This document shows positions 33,735 through 39,282 of a stretch of 64,000 bases of DNA, in pieces (positions within the stretch are counted from its first letter, which is position 1; the number at the start of each line of letters is the position of its first letter). The DNA lies in assembly GCA_002841865.1 (NCBI GenBank), contig PHBD01000005.1:1-64000 (forward strand), in the 5' to 3' direction. The position numbers were made by a program, and so were the translations under genes. A model generated the notes under the pieces. That model made no database searches. It was not told the DNA's origin and saw nothing but the letters and a program-made list of their open reading frames with translations. The stretch is from Deltaproteobacteria bacterium HGW-Deltaproteobacteria-19. Lineage in GTDB: Bacteria > Desulfobacterota > Syntrophia > Syntrophales > PHBD01.

Positions 33735-33895
33735 CGGGTTTCCTCCGGGTGAGTTTTTCTGTGCCTATGGCACACAAGCGGAGAGGCTGTCAATCCCTTT
33801 GCCGCCGGCCCATTCGCAAAGGATTCCTTGCGGGATGGGGCATTTCTGGGGTAATATCAACTCGCTTGACAATTCTTCACATGGAAGGGAACGTC

Positions 33896-34612
33896 ATGCC
33901 GCCCCTGGGAATCATCTCCGGTCCCATGCTCCTGAAAAGTCATGTCCTGGGCAGGCTAAAGCCGCGTGCGCTGGAGACGCCCTTTGGTCCCGCCACGATC
34001 CTCTTGTCCGATGAGGTTGCGTTCCTCCCCCGCCACGGCCTGGAGGGGGAACCCTATATCCTGCCCCACCGGATCAACCATCCCGCCAACCTGACGGCCC
34101 TGCGGGACCTGGGGGTACGCCAGGTTGTTTCCGCCAACTCAACCGGATCGCTGAAGACGGCTTTTCCCCCGGGAACCCTTGTCGTGCCCGACGACTATAT
34201 CATGCTTGCCGCCTCTCCGACGGTATTCCACGACCAGCCGGTCCACATCACTCCCGCCCTGTCCGAGGAACTCCGGCAGGAGTGGCTTTCGGCCGCGGCG
34301 GACTGCCGCCTGGCGATCGTAAACGGCGGCGTGTACTGGCATACGGTGGGTCCCCGGTTCGAAACGAGGGCGGAAGTCCGCATGGCGTCCGCATTCGCCG
34401 ACATCGTCGGGATGACGCTGGGTGGCGAAGCCTCCGTGGCGAAGGAACTGGGACTTGATTATGCATCTCTCTGTTCCGTCGACAATTTCGCCCACGGTAT
34501 CGGCGGGAAACCTCTGACCATGAAGGAAATCGTCCGGTGCTCCCGGGAGAACGCCGGGGCCATTGTACGAATCGTCAAACAGCTGCTGGAAAAGAGGAGG
34601 GGAAACGGATGA
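33896..34612 (+). CDS. Nucleoside phosphorylase (MTAP/PNP family)
   Basis: The 238-residue enzyme splits a purine nucleoside or methylthioinosine/methylthioadenosine with phosphate. The pattern HRINHPANLTALRDLGVRQVVSANSTGSLK and the active-site region GGVYWHTVGPRFETRAEVRM, with the segment GMTLGGEASVAKELGLDYASLC, fit the family; the usual Asn/Asp base-binding residue region follows. ATG 33896 is chosen for GAAGGG 6 bases before it. It overlaps the adenosyltransferase gene by ATGA. Confidence 0.83.
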   Translation: MPPLGIISGPMLLKSHVLGRLKPRALETPFGPATILLSDEVAFLPRHGLEGEPYILPHRINHPANLTALRDLGVRQVVSANSTGSLKTAFPPGTLVVPDDYIMLAASPTVFHDQPVHITPALSEELRQEWLSAAADCRLAIVNGGVYWHTVGPRFETRAEVRMASAFADIVGMTLGGEASVAKELGLDYASLCSVDNFAHGIGGKPLTMKEIVRCSRENAGAIVRIVKQLLEKRRGNG

Positions 34613-35124: not shown

Positions 35125-35195
35125 ATCGCCGGAGGGCCGGAGGACCTGCCGGCCGCCTGATTGAAAAGGCCTTGTTAAAAGGAAGGCTATCGGCC

Positions 35196-36917
35196 ATGAA
35201 GCGTGCGGCAGGTAATCTTCTCCTGGTGGGGTTCCTTCTCGCTGCGTTGTTTCTGGCGAAGGTTCATAATTATCTTCTCTACCATGCCATCGCCGAAGGA
35301 TTCTCCATCGTTATCGCCTGCACGATCTTCGTGGTCGTTTGGAATGCCCGCCGGGTTCTCGACAATCACTACCTACTCCTCATCGGCATTTCTCTCCTGT
35401 CCTCTGCGGCCCTCGATTTCGTTCATATCCTCTCCTATCCGGGAATGGGGGTCTTCCCGGGGCATAGCGCGGACCTGCCGGAACAACTCTGGATCTCCGC
35501 CCGGTTCATCGAGAGCCTGTCCTTCCTGGTAGCACCCCTTTTCGTCCGTCACCGCCTCCCGGCTCGGAGGACGCTGACGTTCTATGTGCTTGTAACAGCA
35601 GGACTCTTCTTCGCCATCTTTACGCCGGGAGGATTCCCGGAGTGTTTCCGGGAAGGTGCCGGGGGGACCCTCTTTAAAATCGCCAGCCAGTACATGATCT
35701 GCGGAATTTTTCTGCTTGCGGTGGCTTTCCTGTCCCGTGTCCGGGACGCCTTCGATCCAAGCGTCTATCAACTTATTGCAGCGGCGATTCTGATCAAGAT
35801 TGTCCAGGAGGCCGCCTTTACCTTCCACGCGGACGGCTACGGATTTCTTGATACCCTCGGCAATGTCTTCAGGGTCCTGGCCTTCTGGCTTCTCTATCTG
35901 GCTCTTGTCCGTACCGGGCTGCAACGCCCCCATGAGTTGCTGTTTCGCAGCCTGAAATCAAGCGAGGAAACCCTCCGGGAATCGGAAGAGCAATTCCGCA
36001 GCCTGGCGGAGGAATCCGCTGTCGGGGTTCTGGTCCTTCAGGACAGCCGCATCCGTTACGTGAACCGTCGCATAGCGGAGATGTTCGGTTTCCACCCGAG
36101 TGAGATAAGTGACAATCCGTTGCCGACGGATTTCATCATTCCGGAAGACAGACCCGTCTTCGAGGAAAACATGAGGCGGCGTCTCGCCGGTGACTGGAGT
36201 AAGGCCCATACGCCGTACCGGGGCTTGCGAAAGGACGGAACCGTAATCAACGTGGAGGTCCACTCCGCCATGATCTCCTTCCGGGGAAGGCCGGCTATCA
36301 TGGGGACGGTCATCGATGTGACAAATCACATCCAGGTCCAGGAGGCGGTCCGGCACATGGCATACCACGACCCCCTGACGGGGCTTCCGAACCGCGCCCT
36401 CCTGCAGGATCGCATTGAAAACGCCCTGACGGCCGCCGTCCGCGCGAAACGCCATGCGGCGCTCCTGGTGCTTGACCTGGACCGGTTCAAGGAGGTGAAC
36501 GACACCCTGGGCCATGCCCTGGGAGATCAACTTCTGACAGAGGTGGCCGGCCGGCTCCGGCAGGCGGTGCGGGAGAGCGATACGGTGGCCCGTCTCGGGG
36601 GAGACGAGTTTGTGGTCTTTCTTCCCGAGGTCCAGAAGGATAAGGCAGCTCTGCAGGTGGCGGAAAAGATCCTGGAGTCCTTCAGGATGGATTTTGTCCT
36701 GGAAGGTCATGCGATTCATTCCTCTACAAGTATCGGGATTGCCCGATTCCCGGAGGATGGGAAGGATGGCAAGACTCTGCTTAAGAAGGCTGACGAGGCG
36801 ATGTACCGGGCGAAAGAGGCGGGGGGAAACCGGTATGAGCAGGCCCGGGCTTTTCAAGACCTGAAGGAAGACAATCCATCAAGTGCTGCCCCTGATTATC
36901 GAGGGAATTCACTGTGA
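35196..36917 (+). CDS. Membrane diguanylate cyclase with MASE3 and PAS domains
   Basis: The 573-residue signalling protein has an N-terminal MASE3 membrane sensor (about 5-240, seven to eight helices, with LLSSAALDFVHILSYPGM). A short coiled coil and a PAS domain (about 262-380) follow, then a GGDEF domain (about 390-545). The active site reads GGDEF at 468-472 and the inhibitory I-site RESD at 459-462 lies exactly five residues upstream, so it should make c-di-GMP with product inhibition. No EAL domain is present. ATG 35196 follows AAAAGGAAGG. Confidence 0.9.
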   Translation: MKRAAGNLLLVGFLLAALFLAKVHNYLLYHAIAEGFSIVIACTIFVVVWNARRVLDNHYLLLIGISLLSSAALDFVHILSYPGMGVFPGHSADLPEQLWISARFIESLSFLVAPLFVRHRLPARRTLTFYVLVTAGLFFAIFTPGGFPECFREGAGGTLFKIASQYMICGIFLLAVAFLSRVRDAFDPSVYQLIAAAILIKIVQEAAFTFHADGYGFLDTLGNVFRVLAFWLLYLALVRTGLQRPHELLFRSLKSSEETLRESEEQFRSLAEESAVGVLVLQDSRIRYVNRRIAEMFGFHPSEISDNPLPTDFIIPEDRPVFEENMRRRLAGDWSKAHTPYRGLRKDGTVINVEVHSAMISFRGRPAIMGTVIDVTNHIQVQEAVRHMAYHDPLTGLPNRALLQDRIENALTAAVRAKRHAALLVLDLDRFKEVNDTLGHALGDQLLTEVAGRLRQAVRESDTVARLGGDEFVVFLPEVQKDKAALQVAEKILESFRMDFVLEGHAIHSSTSIGIARFPEDGKDGKTLLKKADEAMYRAKEAGGNRYEQARAFQDLKEDNPSSAAPDYRGNSL

Positions 36918-36966: not shown

Positions 36967-37395
36967 TCAGAAAGCCCCGAGCTGGCAGGGCTTGACCTTG
37001 ATCTTCAGGGCTTCGCAGGCTGCGGCCACTTCCATCTTCGGTACGTCGAACCGGCGGGCGATCTCCCAGGAGTCGAGGCAGGGCAGGCGCCCGTCCCGGA
37101 GGGCCGCCCGGATGGCCCTCTCGATGTCCGGTGGAGCCGCAATGGCGGCATTCACGATCCTGCCCTGGGGGTAGCCGAAGAGACCGAGCTGGCACCGGGT
37201 GAGCTGGATGTTCAGCAGGTCCAGGTGCATGCCGATCGTGGCCATGTCCTTCCGGAGAAAGTCTGCCAGCCTGGTCGCTGCGGCGCAGGAGATGGCCCCC
37301 TTTTCGGAAGCGTTTCGCAGGGCCTCGGCGATTTCGGGATCTGCTGTGACGCCCGGGTGCTTGTCCCGGAAGCTTCCCTTGTCCTCGTGCTTCAT
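36967..37395 (-). CDS. Small protein with two tandem CQLGxF repeats, function unknown
   Basis: The 142-residue protein contains two copies of about 52 residues, at about 20-73 and 90-142. Each has a helix, a short turn with Gly and Cys (KGAISC, DGRLPC), a second helix, a helix that looks like a recognition helix (MHLDLLNIQL, VAAACEALKI) and the end motif CQLGLFG or CQLGAF. The layout suggests a duplicated winged-helix-like unit. The paired Cys residues could bind metal. It is set on the minus strand just after the diguanylate cyclase, and 118 bases lie between it and the end of the ACT gene upstream of it. Confidence 0.65.
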   Translation of the reverse strand: MKHEDKGSFRDKHPGVTADPEIAEALRNASEKGAISCAAATRLADFLRKDMATIGMHLDLLNIQLTRCQLGLFGYPQGRIVNAAIAAPPDIERAIRAALRDGRLPCLDSWEIARRFDVPKMEVAAACEALKIKVKPCQLGAF

Positions 37396-37513
37396 GTCGT
37401 TCCCCCGTTCTGTGCGAAGTCTTTGAGTGTATGCCCGGCCGCCCGCCGTGGTGTAGAACAATCCTTCCCTGTTCTTCGTTCTTCCCCCCACGCGGGCGAA
37501 GGGCGGCTTACCC

Positions 37514-37969
37514 TCAATACTTCATGTAGTGAAATGGTTCGATGGTCGACAGGGCATCCGTGTCCAGCGTCCGAAAGCCGTTCTTCTCAACCAGCTTTTC
37601 CGCCTTTTCCATCTGGTCTACATCCACCACAAATACGGCCTTCTCACGGCTCTCGAGGACGAAACCGTATGCGTTGTTCACGTTGACGCCTTCCTTGAAG
37701 AGGAGCTGGGTGAGCCGGTCCAGGCCGCCGGGCTTGTCGTCGATGAGGATCGCCAGAACAGGCCGGAGTTTTACCATCATCCCGGCTTTGGTCAGGGCGG
37801 CCTGGGCGGCCGTGGGATCGTCCACGATCAGGTTGATGACGCCGAAGGTGTCCGTTGTGGCGATCGTGGTCGCCCGGATGCTTACCTTTGCCTTGGCCAG
37901 GACGGAAGTGACGGCGGCGAGCTTGCCGGGCTTGTTCTCCGCGAAAATGGAAAGCTGATGTGCGATCAT
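37514..37969 (-). CDS. Tandem ACT-domain protein associated with phenylacetate-CoA ligase
   Basis: The 151-residue protein consists of two ACT-type ligand-binding domains (about 3-68 and 69-145). The first starts HQLSIFAENKPGKLAAVTSVLAKA and the second LRPVLAILIDDKPGGLDRLTQLL; both show the ACT Gly turn. Such ACT proteins sit next to PaaK in many anaerobes and may sense an amino acid or aromatic acid. It lies 14 bases after paaK on the same strand. Confidence 0.85.
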   Translation of the reverse strand: MIAHQLSIFAENKPGKLAAVTSVLAKAKVSIRATTIATTDTFGVINLIVDDPTAAQAALTKAGMMVKLRPVLAILIDDKPGGLDRLTQLLFKEGVNVNNAYGFVLESREKAVFVVDVDQMEKAEKLVEKNGFRTLDTDALSTIEPFHYMKY

Positions 37970-37983
37970 GAATGGTTCCTCCT

Positions 37984-39282
37984 TTATTTTTCGCGGTTGT
38001 CAATGACCCTGACCGCCTTGCCCTCCGTCTTGGGGAGGCTGTCGGGTTCCACCAGGTCGACTTTCGGCGTGATGAGGATGTCGCTCTTGAGTTCCTCTAC
38101 GATGCGTCGCCGCAGTGCCTCCAGGTGACGAAGCTCGCCGTTGAAGAACTCCCGCTCCACCTCCACCTTGATGTGCATCAGGTCGTTGAAGCCCTCCCGC
38201 TCCAGGAGGATGACGAAGTTCCTGCCCACCCCCGGGATCTCCATGAGTTTCTTCTCGATCTGGATGGGGAAGATGTTGACCCCCTTCAGGATCATCATGT
38301 CGTCGGTGCGGCCGGTGATCCGCTCGATGCGGCGATGGGTGCGCCCGCAGGGGCATTCGCCGGGGAGGATCCGGGTCAGGTCCTTTGTCCGATATCGCAG
38401 GACCGGCATGCCTTCCCGGAGCAGGGTCGTCATGACCAGTTCCCCCTCCCGGCCGTCCGGAACGGGCTGGAGGGTGACCGGATCGATGATCTCGACGATG
38501 AAGTTGTCCTCCCAGATGTGCATTCCGTTCTGCTCGGGGCATTCAAAGGCCACACCGGGTCCGTTCATCTCCGAGAGCCCGTAGGAGTTGAAGGCCCTGA
38601 AACCGTAGAATTCTTCGATCCGCTTCCGCATCTTCTCCGAGTGGGGCTCCGCGCCGATGAAGGCCATGCGGACCTTCGTATCCTTCTGCGGCTTGAGACC
38701 GAGTTCCTCGAAGACTGTGTAAAGGTGCAGGGCGTAGCTGGGGATGATGTGGATGGCCGTCGTGTCGAAGTCCCGCATGAGCTGGATCTGGCGCTTGCTG
38801 TTGCCCGCCCCGGCGGGAATCGTAAGGGCGCCCACCCGTTCCGCCCCGTAATGGAAGCCCAGGCCGCCGGTGAAAAGGCCGTAGGTCATCATGTTCTGGA
38901 AAACGTCGCTCTTTCTGAGCCCCGCCATGTACATGCTGCGGGCCACCAGGTTCGTCCAGGCGTCGACGTCTTTCTTCGTGTGGAAGATGACCGTGGCCCG
39001 GCCCGTTGTTCCCGAGGACGAGTGCATGCGGATCAGTTCGTCCTTCGAGACGGCCAGAAATCCGTAAGGCCAGTTTTCCCGGAGGTCGTCCTTCGTCGTA
39101 AAGGGGATCCTTCTGATGTCGTCGAGGGTGCGGATGTCCTTCGGATGGAGGCCCGCATCCGTGAAGGCCTTCCCGTAATAATAGGATTGGACGGCCCGTC
39201 TCGTTGTCTCCTGGAGCCGTTCCAGCTGCAGAGTCGCCAGTTGTTCGCGGTTCATCGTTTCCAGCTCTTTTTCCCAGTACAT
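37984..39282 (-). CDS. paaK: Phenylacetate-CoA ligase (AMP-forming)
   Basis: The 432-residue enzyme activates phenylacetate or a related aryl acid to its CoA thioester. The motifs are clear: MHSSSGTTGRATVIFHTKKD (P-loop-like), FNSYGLSEMNGPGVAFEC, YRTKDLTRILPGECPCGRTHRRI and GRTDDMMILKGVNIFP. It is cytoplasmic. The ACT-domain partner gene follows. In anaerobes this pair is typical for aromatic amino acid breakdown through aryl-pyruvates, as the indolepyruvate ferredoxin oxidoreductase genes often lie close; none is visible here. Confidence 0.92.
   Translation of the reverse strand: MYWEKELETMNREQLATLQLERLQETTRRAVQSYYYGKAFTDAGLHPKDIRTLDDIRRIPFTTKDDLRENWPYGFLAVSKDELIRMHSSSGTTGRATVIFHTKKDVDAWTNLVARSMYMAGLRKSDVFQNMMTYGLFTGGLGFHYGAERVGALTIPAGAGNSKRQIQLMRDFDTTAIHIIPSYALHLYTVFEELGLKPQKDTKVRMAFIGAEPHSEKMRKRIEEFYGFRAFNSYGLSEMNGPGVAFECPEQNGMHIWEDNFIVEIIDPVTLQPVPDGREGELVMTTLLREGMPVLRYRTKDLTRILPGECPCGRTHRRIERITGRTDDMMILKGVNIFPIQIEKKLMEIPGVGRNFVILLEREGFNDLMHIKVEVEREFFNGELRHLEALRRRIVEELKSDILITPKVDLVEPDSLPKTEGKAVRVIDNREK

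Follow-up and report, generated by a model that had tools for sequence, protein, structure and literature searches.

A conserved gene encoding two homologous units

What does a small protein do whose two halves close with the same cysteine-containing motif, and whose gene lies between a signalling gene and aromatic-acid genes? The question is raised by a gene in the window, the whole stretch of 64,000 nucleotides analysed here. The gene and its parts are as follows, the helices and strands being those of AlphaFold2 models.

36967..37395, minus strand: gene of the two-unit CQLG protein, 142 amino acids plus stop, with homologues in 131 of 149 genomes
37354..37395, minus strand: N-terminal extension, residues 1-14 (with K12 and H13), carried by most two-unit forms (from the alignment)
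37171..37344, minus strand: unit 1, residues 18-75, ending CQLGLFG (AlphaFold2 and profile comparison); helices 20-29, 37-47 and 51-60, strands 34-36 and 64-66
36970..37140, minus strand: unit 2, residues 86-142, with CQLGAF at the exact C-terminus (AlphaFold2 and profile comparison); helices 89-98, 106-115 and 120-129

The interval 36967-37395 is a real protein-coding gene, present as a single copy in the genome of the window. It runs from an ATG at 37395 to a stop codon ending at 36967. The earliest in-frame start of the reading frame is a GTG at 37491, 5' of this ATG; we preferred the ATG because a methionine at this position is present in all 24 rows of the closest alignment (A1) and a G-rich, ribosome-binding-like stretch immediately precedes it. 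The protein is 89% identical to its counterpart in a congener (genome G001), and the codon changes between the two comprise 35 synonymous and 16 non-synonymous ones. Most nucleotide differences (40 of 63) fall at codon position 3, and the gene is therefore under protein-level constraint.

An earlier note, made from the sequence without database searches, had described the protein as two CQLGxF units, and this description was borne out. The protein consists of two homologous units of about 55 residues, each closing with CQLG-x-F. The halves aligned over 58 residues without gaps at a Smith-Waterman score of 68, which none of 20,000 shuffles of the second half reached (highest 53), and the profile of unit 1 matched that of unit 2 at 99.6% (E 7.7e-24). 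The endings CQLG(L/A)F were read correctly, whereas the shared turn noted as Gly-x-x-Cys is actually Gly-x-x-x-Cys (G33...C37 and G102...C106). Each half also matched the profile of single-unit relatives (99.7% and 99.6%, hhalign), a profile that found two matches in the genome of the window (G000; best E 1.6e-14), and both halves have the profile match, the cysteine pair and the CQLGxF motif that define the single-unit family. Judged from these comparisons, the gene arose by tandem duplication of the single-unit domain.

Distribution of the family and its two forms

A profile search with one repeat, which the earlier note had proposed, proved productive: of 395 genomes sampled across the phylum, a set that includes the genome of the window and 15 of its order, 188 had a homologue, and the two-unit profile (A1) and the single-unit profile (A4) both gave this count. 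Among the 188 carriers, 175 had one match and 13 had more than one. Within the genus and order, 131 of 149 genomes, own genome included, carried a homologue. A contig scan confirmed at least 561 relatives. The two-unit loci named below are the best 80 of these, a sample that leans to close relatives of the window, and their record titles read Syntrophales, Syntrophaceae, Smithella, Desulfobacteraceae and Deltaproteobacteria, with some Pseudomonadota metagenome-assembled genomes. Within the phylum of the window, where this distribution was established, the CQLG family is retained in many bacteria related to syntrophs and sulfate reducers. Plasmid and phage collections gave no match and viral contigs held no confirmed relative, so we rejected a mobile origin.

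Many homologues outside the order of the window are single units of about 57 residues, ending with CQLGCF or one residue longer; of 55 single units, 26 have the cysteine of this C-terminal motif in the penultimate position and 25 have it one place further from the end. In a tree of 153 units, which has few columns, many weak branches and an unsettled bootstrap, four label changes separated single, first and second units, compared with a least possible number of 2 and a shuffled mean of 72.6. From this tree and the profiles we read the two-unit form as the product of an old event in which a single-unit ancestor was duplicated in tandem. A distinct two-unit type (L166-L168 and L172) has an MREFND-like N-terminal extension and, mostly, CQLGCF at both units; it branches elsewhere and may stem from a separate event. 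Three longer single-unit proteins (L145, L219 and L220) have extra N-terminal cysteines; the first two are both carried by genome G338 and the third comes from G381.

Library and literature searches

No family in Pfam, NCBIfam, PHROGs, PADLOC or the PDB sequences covers the window protein, in agreement with the earlier note, which could not match it with a characterised family. In NCBIfam the window protein matched nothing up to an E of 10, and the 55 single units gave nothing relevant at E up to 0.01. No curated helix-turn-helix (HTH) family scored above its cut-off for the window protein, the best Pfam HTH hits reaching 12.5 and 12.2 bits against 27. Several members had sub-threshold Pfam hits to HTH_36, AsnC-type, HTH_3, GntR and LysR-type HTH_1 domains, and further weak hits in members were to GntR, MarR, HTH_6 and HTH_38. 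Weak hits to Pfam families outside the HTH group scored similarly or better, namely Arg_tRNA_synt_N (three members, best 8e-5), PEP-utilisers_N and VBS. A PADLOC PDC-S70 hit of L167 (E 0.0019) and a poxvirus A20 hit of the single-unit profile (E 0.19) were judged to be chance.

Pfam DUF7645 (PF24655) matched the first half of the unit, omitting the CQLG half, in 15 of the 101 members of a broader alignment (A2) at E 0.01. Its cut-off was passed by one of ten scanned homologues (L024, a partial match at 28.2 against 27 bits), while the window protein had no match and eight scanned genomes had none over the cut-off. L024 barely exceeds the cut-off, over half a unit, and we did not accept membership of DUF7645 on this match. 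Rfam gave nothing in the 64-kb window. A literature search found neither the motif CQLGCF nor DUF7645, and broader searches, judged from their listings, returned nothing resembling the CQLG family. What is described here is a family that the searched libraries do not name, built on a known fold, and not a new kind of system.

Predicted fold

Both halves had been proposed to share an HTH-like layout, and the models agree. AlphaFold2 modelled the two-unit form with a pLDDT of 92.7 and a pTM of 0.83 (alignment A2) and the single-unit form with 87.0 and 0.63 (alignment A5), and a trihelical HTH core is predicted in both. The CQLGxF parts of the two-unit model lie in confident blocks (residues 61-80 and 131-142, at 87-96). 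The models of the single form and of unit 1 run helix, strand, helix, turn, helix, strand; that of unit 2 has three helices and only shorter strand or bridge residues. Of the winged helix that the note suggested for structure prediction, the trihelical HTH-like core is predicted, but the full beta wing with its third strand is absent from the models, which have at most two short strands per unit.

Foldseek found no fold match at E 0.001 for either form, and the best VIA-align Z scores were 5.3 and 5.6, with none above 6 among the matches listed. Homeodomains made up most of the top solved folds for the single unit, at Z of about 5, and the regulator TM1602 also figured among these folds; similar VIA-align scores were obtained for the C-terminal domain of ribosomal protein L11 and the N-terminal domains of NuoE, HydC and NfnC, so that the weak structural neighbours mix DNA-binding, RNA-binding and redox-enzyme domains. 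With HTH and homeodomain-like domains, TM1602-type regulators included, the units share three helices and the HTH-like turn, and the tandem copies in the window protein recall double homeodomains; the CQLG units differ by two short strands and an invariant cysteine tail, and the likeness is one of predicted fold, the window protein matching no such sequence family above cut-off. An HTH-like fold of each unit is likely on these models. Its weak structural neighbours include domains that do not bind DNA, and it does not distinguish DNA binding from other uses.

Conserved cysteines

The earlier note counted four conserved cysteines. All four are invariant, in 101 of 101 rows of A2 and in 130 of 130 distinct two-unit homologues, but a fifth, C127, had been missed. 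The codons, with their conservation in these two sets, are listed below.

37285..37287, minus strand: Cys37, unit 1, start of helix 2 (101/101, 130/130)
37192..37194, minus strand: Cys68, unit 1, in CQLG (101/101, 130/130; motif partly selected for)
37078..37080, minus strand: Cys106, unit 2, start of helix 2 (101/101, 130/130)
37015..37017, minus strand: Cys127, unit 2, helix 3, the fifth cysteine (88/101, 117/130)
36985..36987, minus strand: Cys137, unit 2, in the C-terminal CQLGAF (101/101, 130/130; motif partly selected for)

The alignment of cysteines across homologues that the note had called for therefore came out in its favour, with the qualification that the invariance of C68 and C137 is partly selected, the CQL motif having been used in the contig scan and in unit counting, whereas C37 and C106 lie outside this selection. 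Invariant in A2 are C37, C68, Q69, C106, A113, C137, Q138 and F142; Q138 is kept in 129 of the 130 distinct two-unit proteins, L109 being the exception. The N-terminal extension has K12 in 91 and H13 in 82 of the 101 rows. In the single-unit rows, C21, C52 and F57 are each present in 55 of 55 and C56 in 51. The equivalent of C56 is mostly replaced in two-unit forms (L72 in 94 and A141 in 87 of 101 rows), and the constant core is therefore two cysteines per unit. The cysteine/CQLGxF element is conserved most strongly, above the third, recognition-like helix. This helix is often acidic in single units (E37 in 34, E40 in 25 and E44 in 45 of 55), and the mean net charge is about +1.4 for single-unit and +2.5 for two-unit proteins.

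Gene neighbourhoods

Two genes lie upstream of the CQLG gene in the same direction.

37514..37969, minus strand: ACT-domain-pair protein, 151 amino acids, directly upstream (Pfam ACT_8 in the homologue at L031)
37984..39282, minus strand: PaaK-like phenylacetate-CoA ligase, 432 amino acids (named by eye)

Here and below, the names PaaK, NifX-like, FdhE-like, MoeA, activase and acyl-CoA synthetase were given by eye, and we take the genes to be such from their sequences. Read along the minus strand, the PaaK-like ligase comes first, then the ACT-pair protein and then the CQLG gene, which a GGDEF gene faces; the congener keeps this order. The facing PAS-GGDEF gene (35172-36917), which by eye has a predicted membrane part, is convergent with the CQLG gene at about 50 bases, and its product is 69% identical between the congeners, against 89% for the CQLG protein. 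A gene resembling purine-nucleoside/MTA phosphorylases by eye lies at 33749-34612, and 30 of the 80 named loci (best 80 of at least 561) have members of its family in the vicinity of the CQLG gene on the other strand, 33 copies in all.

The location between signalling and aromatic-acid genes, which together with the cysteines had led the note to call a metal- or redox-sensing regulator possible, holds for the window, with GGDEF on one side and PaaK and ACT on the other, but is not general. Among the best 80 of at least 561 relatives, 44 of the 78 two-unit loci with enough flank have an ACT gene immediately upstream, PaaK is upstream in 35 of 69, and both are upstream in 31. The gap from ACT to CQLG is at most 55 bases in 30 of the 45 gaps listed, consistent with both genes being in one operon at those loci; in the window it is about 118 bases. 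The genes beside the family are not constant, contrary to what the note's proposed check looked for: single-unit relatives have different neighbours, and the surroundings depend on lineage, with ACT and PaaK here and radical SAM with a large activase, Mrp, FdhD or siroheme decarboxylase elsewhere.

Of 53 single-unit genes, 20 have a radical SAM gene immediately downstream (raw count), and 19 of these 20 loci have the start or the whole of an activase of about 1390 residues within 3 kb. No radical SAM gene was found within 1.5 kb of 159 two-unit genes, as far as the available flanks reach, and the genome of the window has only weak matches to this partner (best E 1.3e-6). We therefore rejected radical SAM as a universal partner. 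The trio at L153:5001-10375 comprises a single-unit CQLG gene, a radical SAM protein of about 315 amino acids with a GPVPSRRLG-like start (COG0731-like by eye) and a BadF/HgdC-type activase of about 1390 amino acids (by eye); equivalents are found at L143, L144, L147-L150, L154, L156, L157, L210 (activase cut off) and L227, and several trio loci are preceded by a TetR-type gene. A RiPP-like precursor peptide modified by radical SAM was considered for the conserved C-terminus and rejected as the main reading, since the two-unit motif is internal, the whole domain is conserved and 33 of the 53 single-unit genes have no radical SAM neighbour.

At L211, L212 and L214 a single-unit gene is followed by a Mrp-type Fe-S carrier ATPase and a nitroreductase-like gene and adjoins a MerR-like or metallo-beta-lactamase-like gene, with NifX-like genes further on in L212 and L214. 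FdhD is directly downstream in L219 and L220, and L145 is surrounded by formate dehydrogenase-like, FdhE-like and MoeA-like genes. Siroheme decarboxylase-like genes lie near L151, L221 and L229, and an ADP-forming acyl-CoA synthetase-like gene is upstream of L160-L165. A phylogenetic profile of 40 hand-picked carriers against 40 non-carriers gave CdhC (E 1e-50 or better) in 35 against 21 and AFOR_C in 39 against 28; we set this co-occurrence aside as evidence, the counts being uncorrected for kinship.

Strong inverted repeats were found upstream of 7 of 54 single-unit genes (0.6 expected from shuffles) and 4 of 98 two-unit genes (1.2 expected). No common operator was seen in these 54 and 98 upstream stretches, and the repeats printed resemble mostly terminators or repeats. 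In two of eight printed repeats the arms are the same, ATCCGCC/GGCGGAT, and lie some 90 to 115 bases upstream of two-unit genes; they are possibly a dispersed repeat.

A cysteine-dependent regulator and its alternatives

We tentatively favour, with somewhat less than even confidence, the reading that the window protein is a cysteine-dependent regulator of HTH fold, responding through metal or thiol and acting as a dimer or built-in dimer. In this reading the CQLGxF element would complete the trihelical HTH-like domain of each unit. The two invariant cysteines of a unit, at the start of helix 2 and in CQLG, would serve either as a redox dithiol or as one half of a metal or Fe-S site built from four cysteines. 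Homodimers would then be the working form of the single-unit relatives, and the window protein would contain both halves of such a dimer. Whether the protein binds nucleic acid or a partner, for example the adjacent ACT protein, would depend on its thiol or metal state, and genes of anaerobic metabolism would be tuned in this way. For this reading speak the homology between the two units and with the single-unit family, the unchanging cysteines (130 of 130 in two-unit proteins; C21 and C52 in 55 and C56 in 51 of 55 single units), the confident models with homeodomains and TM1602 among the top folds, the sub-threshold HTH hits and the ACT gene directly upstream in 44 of 78 close loci (best 80 of at least 561). 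Against it stand the fold searches, with no match at E 0.001, Z below 6 and unrelated trihelical domains tied, and the weak Pfam hits outside the HTH group that score alike or better. The acidic helix 3, the modest net charge and the conservation peak on the cysteine/tail element also count against it, as do upstream inverted repeats without a common operator and neighbours too variable to define a regulon.

That same peak on the C-terminal CQLGCF element suits the main rival, which is possible though doubtful: a thiol, sulfur or metal carrier or adaptor working like DsrC/TusE, without DNA binding, in which the HTH-like scaffold would offer a C-terminal cysteine and deliver sulfur, electrons or metal to an anaerobic metalloenzyme or to the apparatus that matures it. 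The single units fit it, with F57 in 55 and C56 in 51 of 55 and with the cysteine penultimate in 26 and one residue further from the end in 25. Some of their genes adjoin FdhD, FdhE-like/MoeA, Mrp-type Fe-S carrier, siroheme decarboxylase or radical SAM genes, although these neighbours are confined to a few lineages (raw counts). DsrC offers a precedent, its strictly conserved penultimate cysteine being described in PMC3397948 as the sulfur-binding residue. The family resembles DsrC/TusE (TIGR03342) in its small size and, among the single-unit relatives, in a conserved cysteine close to or at the C-terminus; the cysteine spacing differs, and only 26 of the 55 single units have the cysteine next to last. 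Two-unit forms mostly swap C56 for L or A, and the window protein ends with A141-F142. Membership of the DsrC family was rejected, as the NCBIfam scans, up to E 10 for the window protein and over the 55 single units, gave no match to TIGR03342. A bolder version would make CQLG proteins a new class of C-terminal-cysteine carriers, analogous but unrelated to DsrC, that hand sulfur, metal or electrons to diverse anaerobic metalloenzymes across the phylum, the tandem form being a fusion whose duty has shifted to the invariant dithiol of each unit; we consider this version decidedly improbable.

The four invariant cysteines per two-unit protein would also suit a structural zinc protein or assembly factor, in which a putative zinc stabilises a small domain docking onto a lineage-specific partner, here the ACT protein and the CoA ligase. 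The operon-like gaps between ACT and CQLG (at most 55 bases in 30 of 45 listed) and the similar trihelical fold in NuoE-type subunits of larger complexes point the same way. A third cysteine in 51 of 55 single units exceeds the need of a zinc site with two cysteines per subunit, and we regard this explanation as unlikely. Highly improbable is descent as a paralogue from the N-terminal trihelical domain of NuoE/HydC, with a role as an electron-transfer accessory. The structural tie at Z of about 5 and one member with a weak Pfam 2Fe-2S_thioredx hit (E 0.013) would speak for it, but hhalign gave a probability of 28.9% over 27 columns and the NuoE row, where aligned, lacks a cysteine in the corresponding position; at 29% in profile comparison we did not accept this homology. 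The NuoE, HydC and NfnC domains, which belong to Pfam 2Fe-2S_thioredx, resemble CQLG units in trihelical fold and structural score, whereas CQLG proteins have no [2Fe-2S] domain.

Set against these alternatives, the cysteine-dependent regulator of HTH fold remains the reading we favour. At about 57 residues, the single-unit forms are small enough for NMR, and metal analysis and knock-out in laboratory strains are likewise feasible. The cysteines are unchanging and the spread is wide (188 of 395 genomes in the phylum, 131 of 149 in the genus and order), and such conservation suggests an important anaerobic function.
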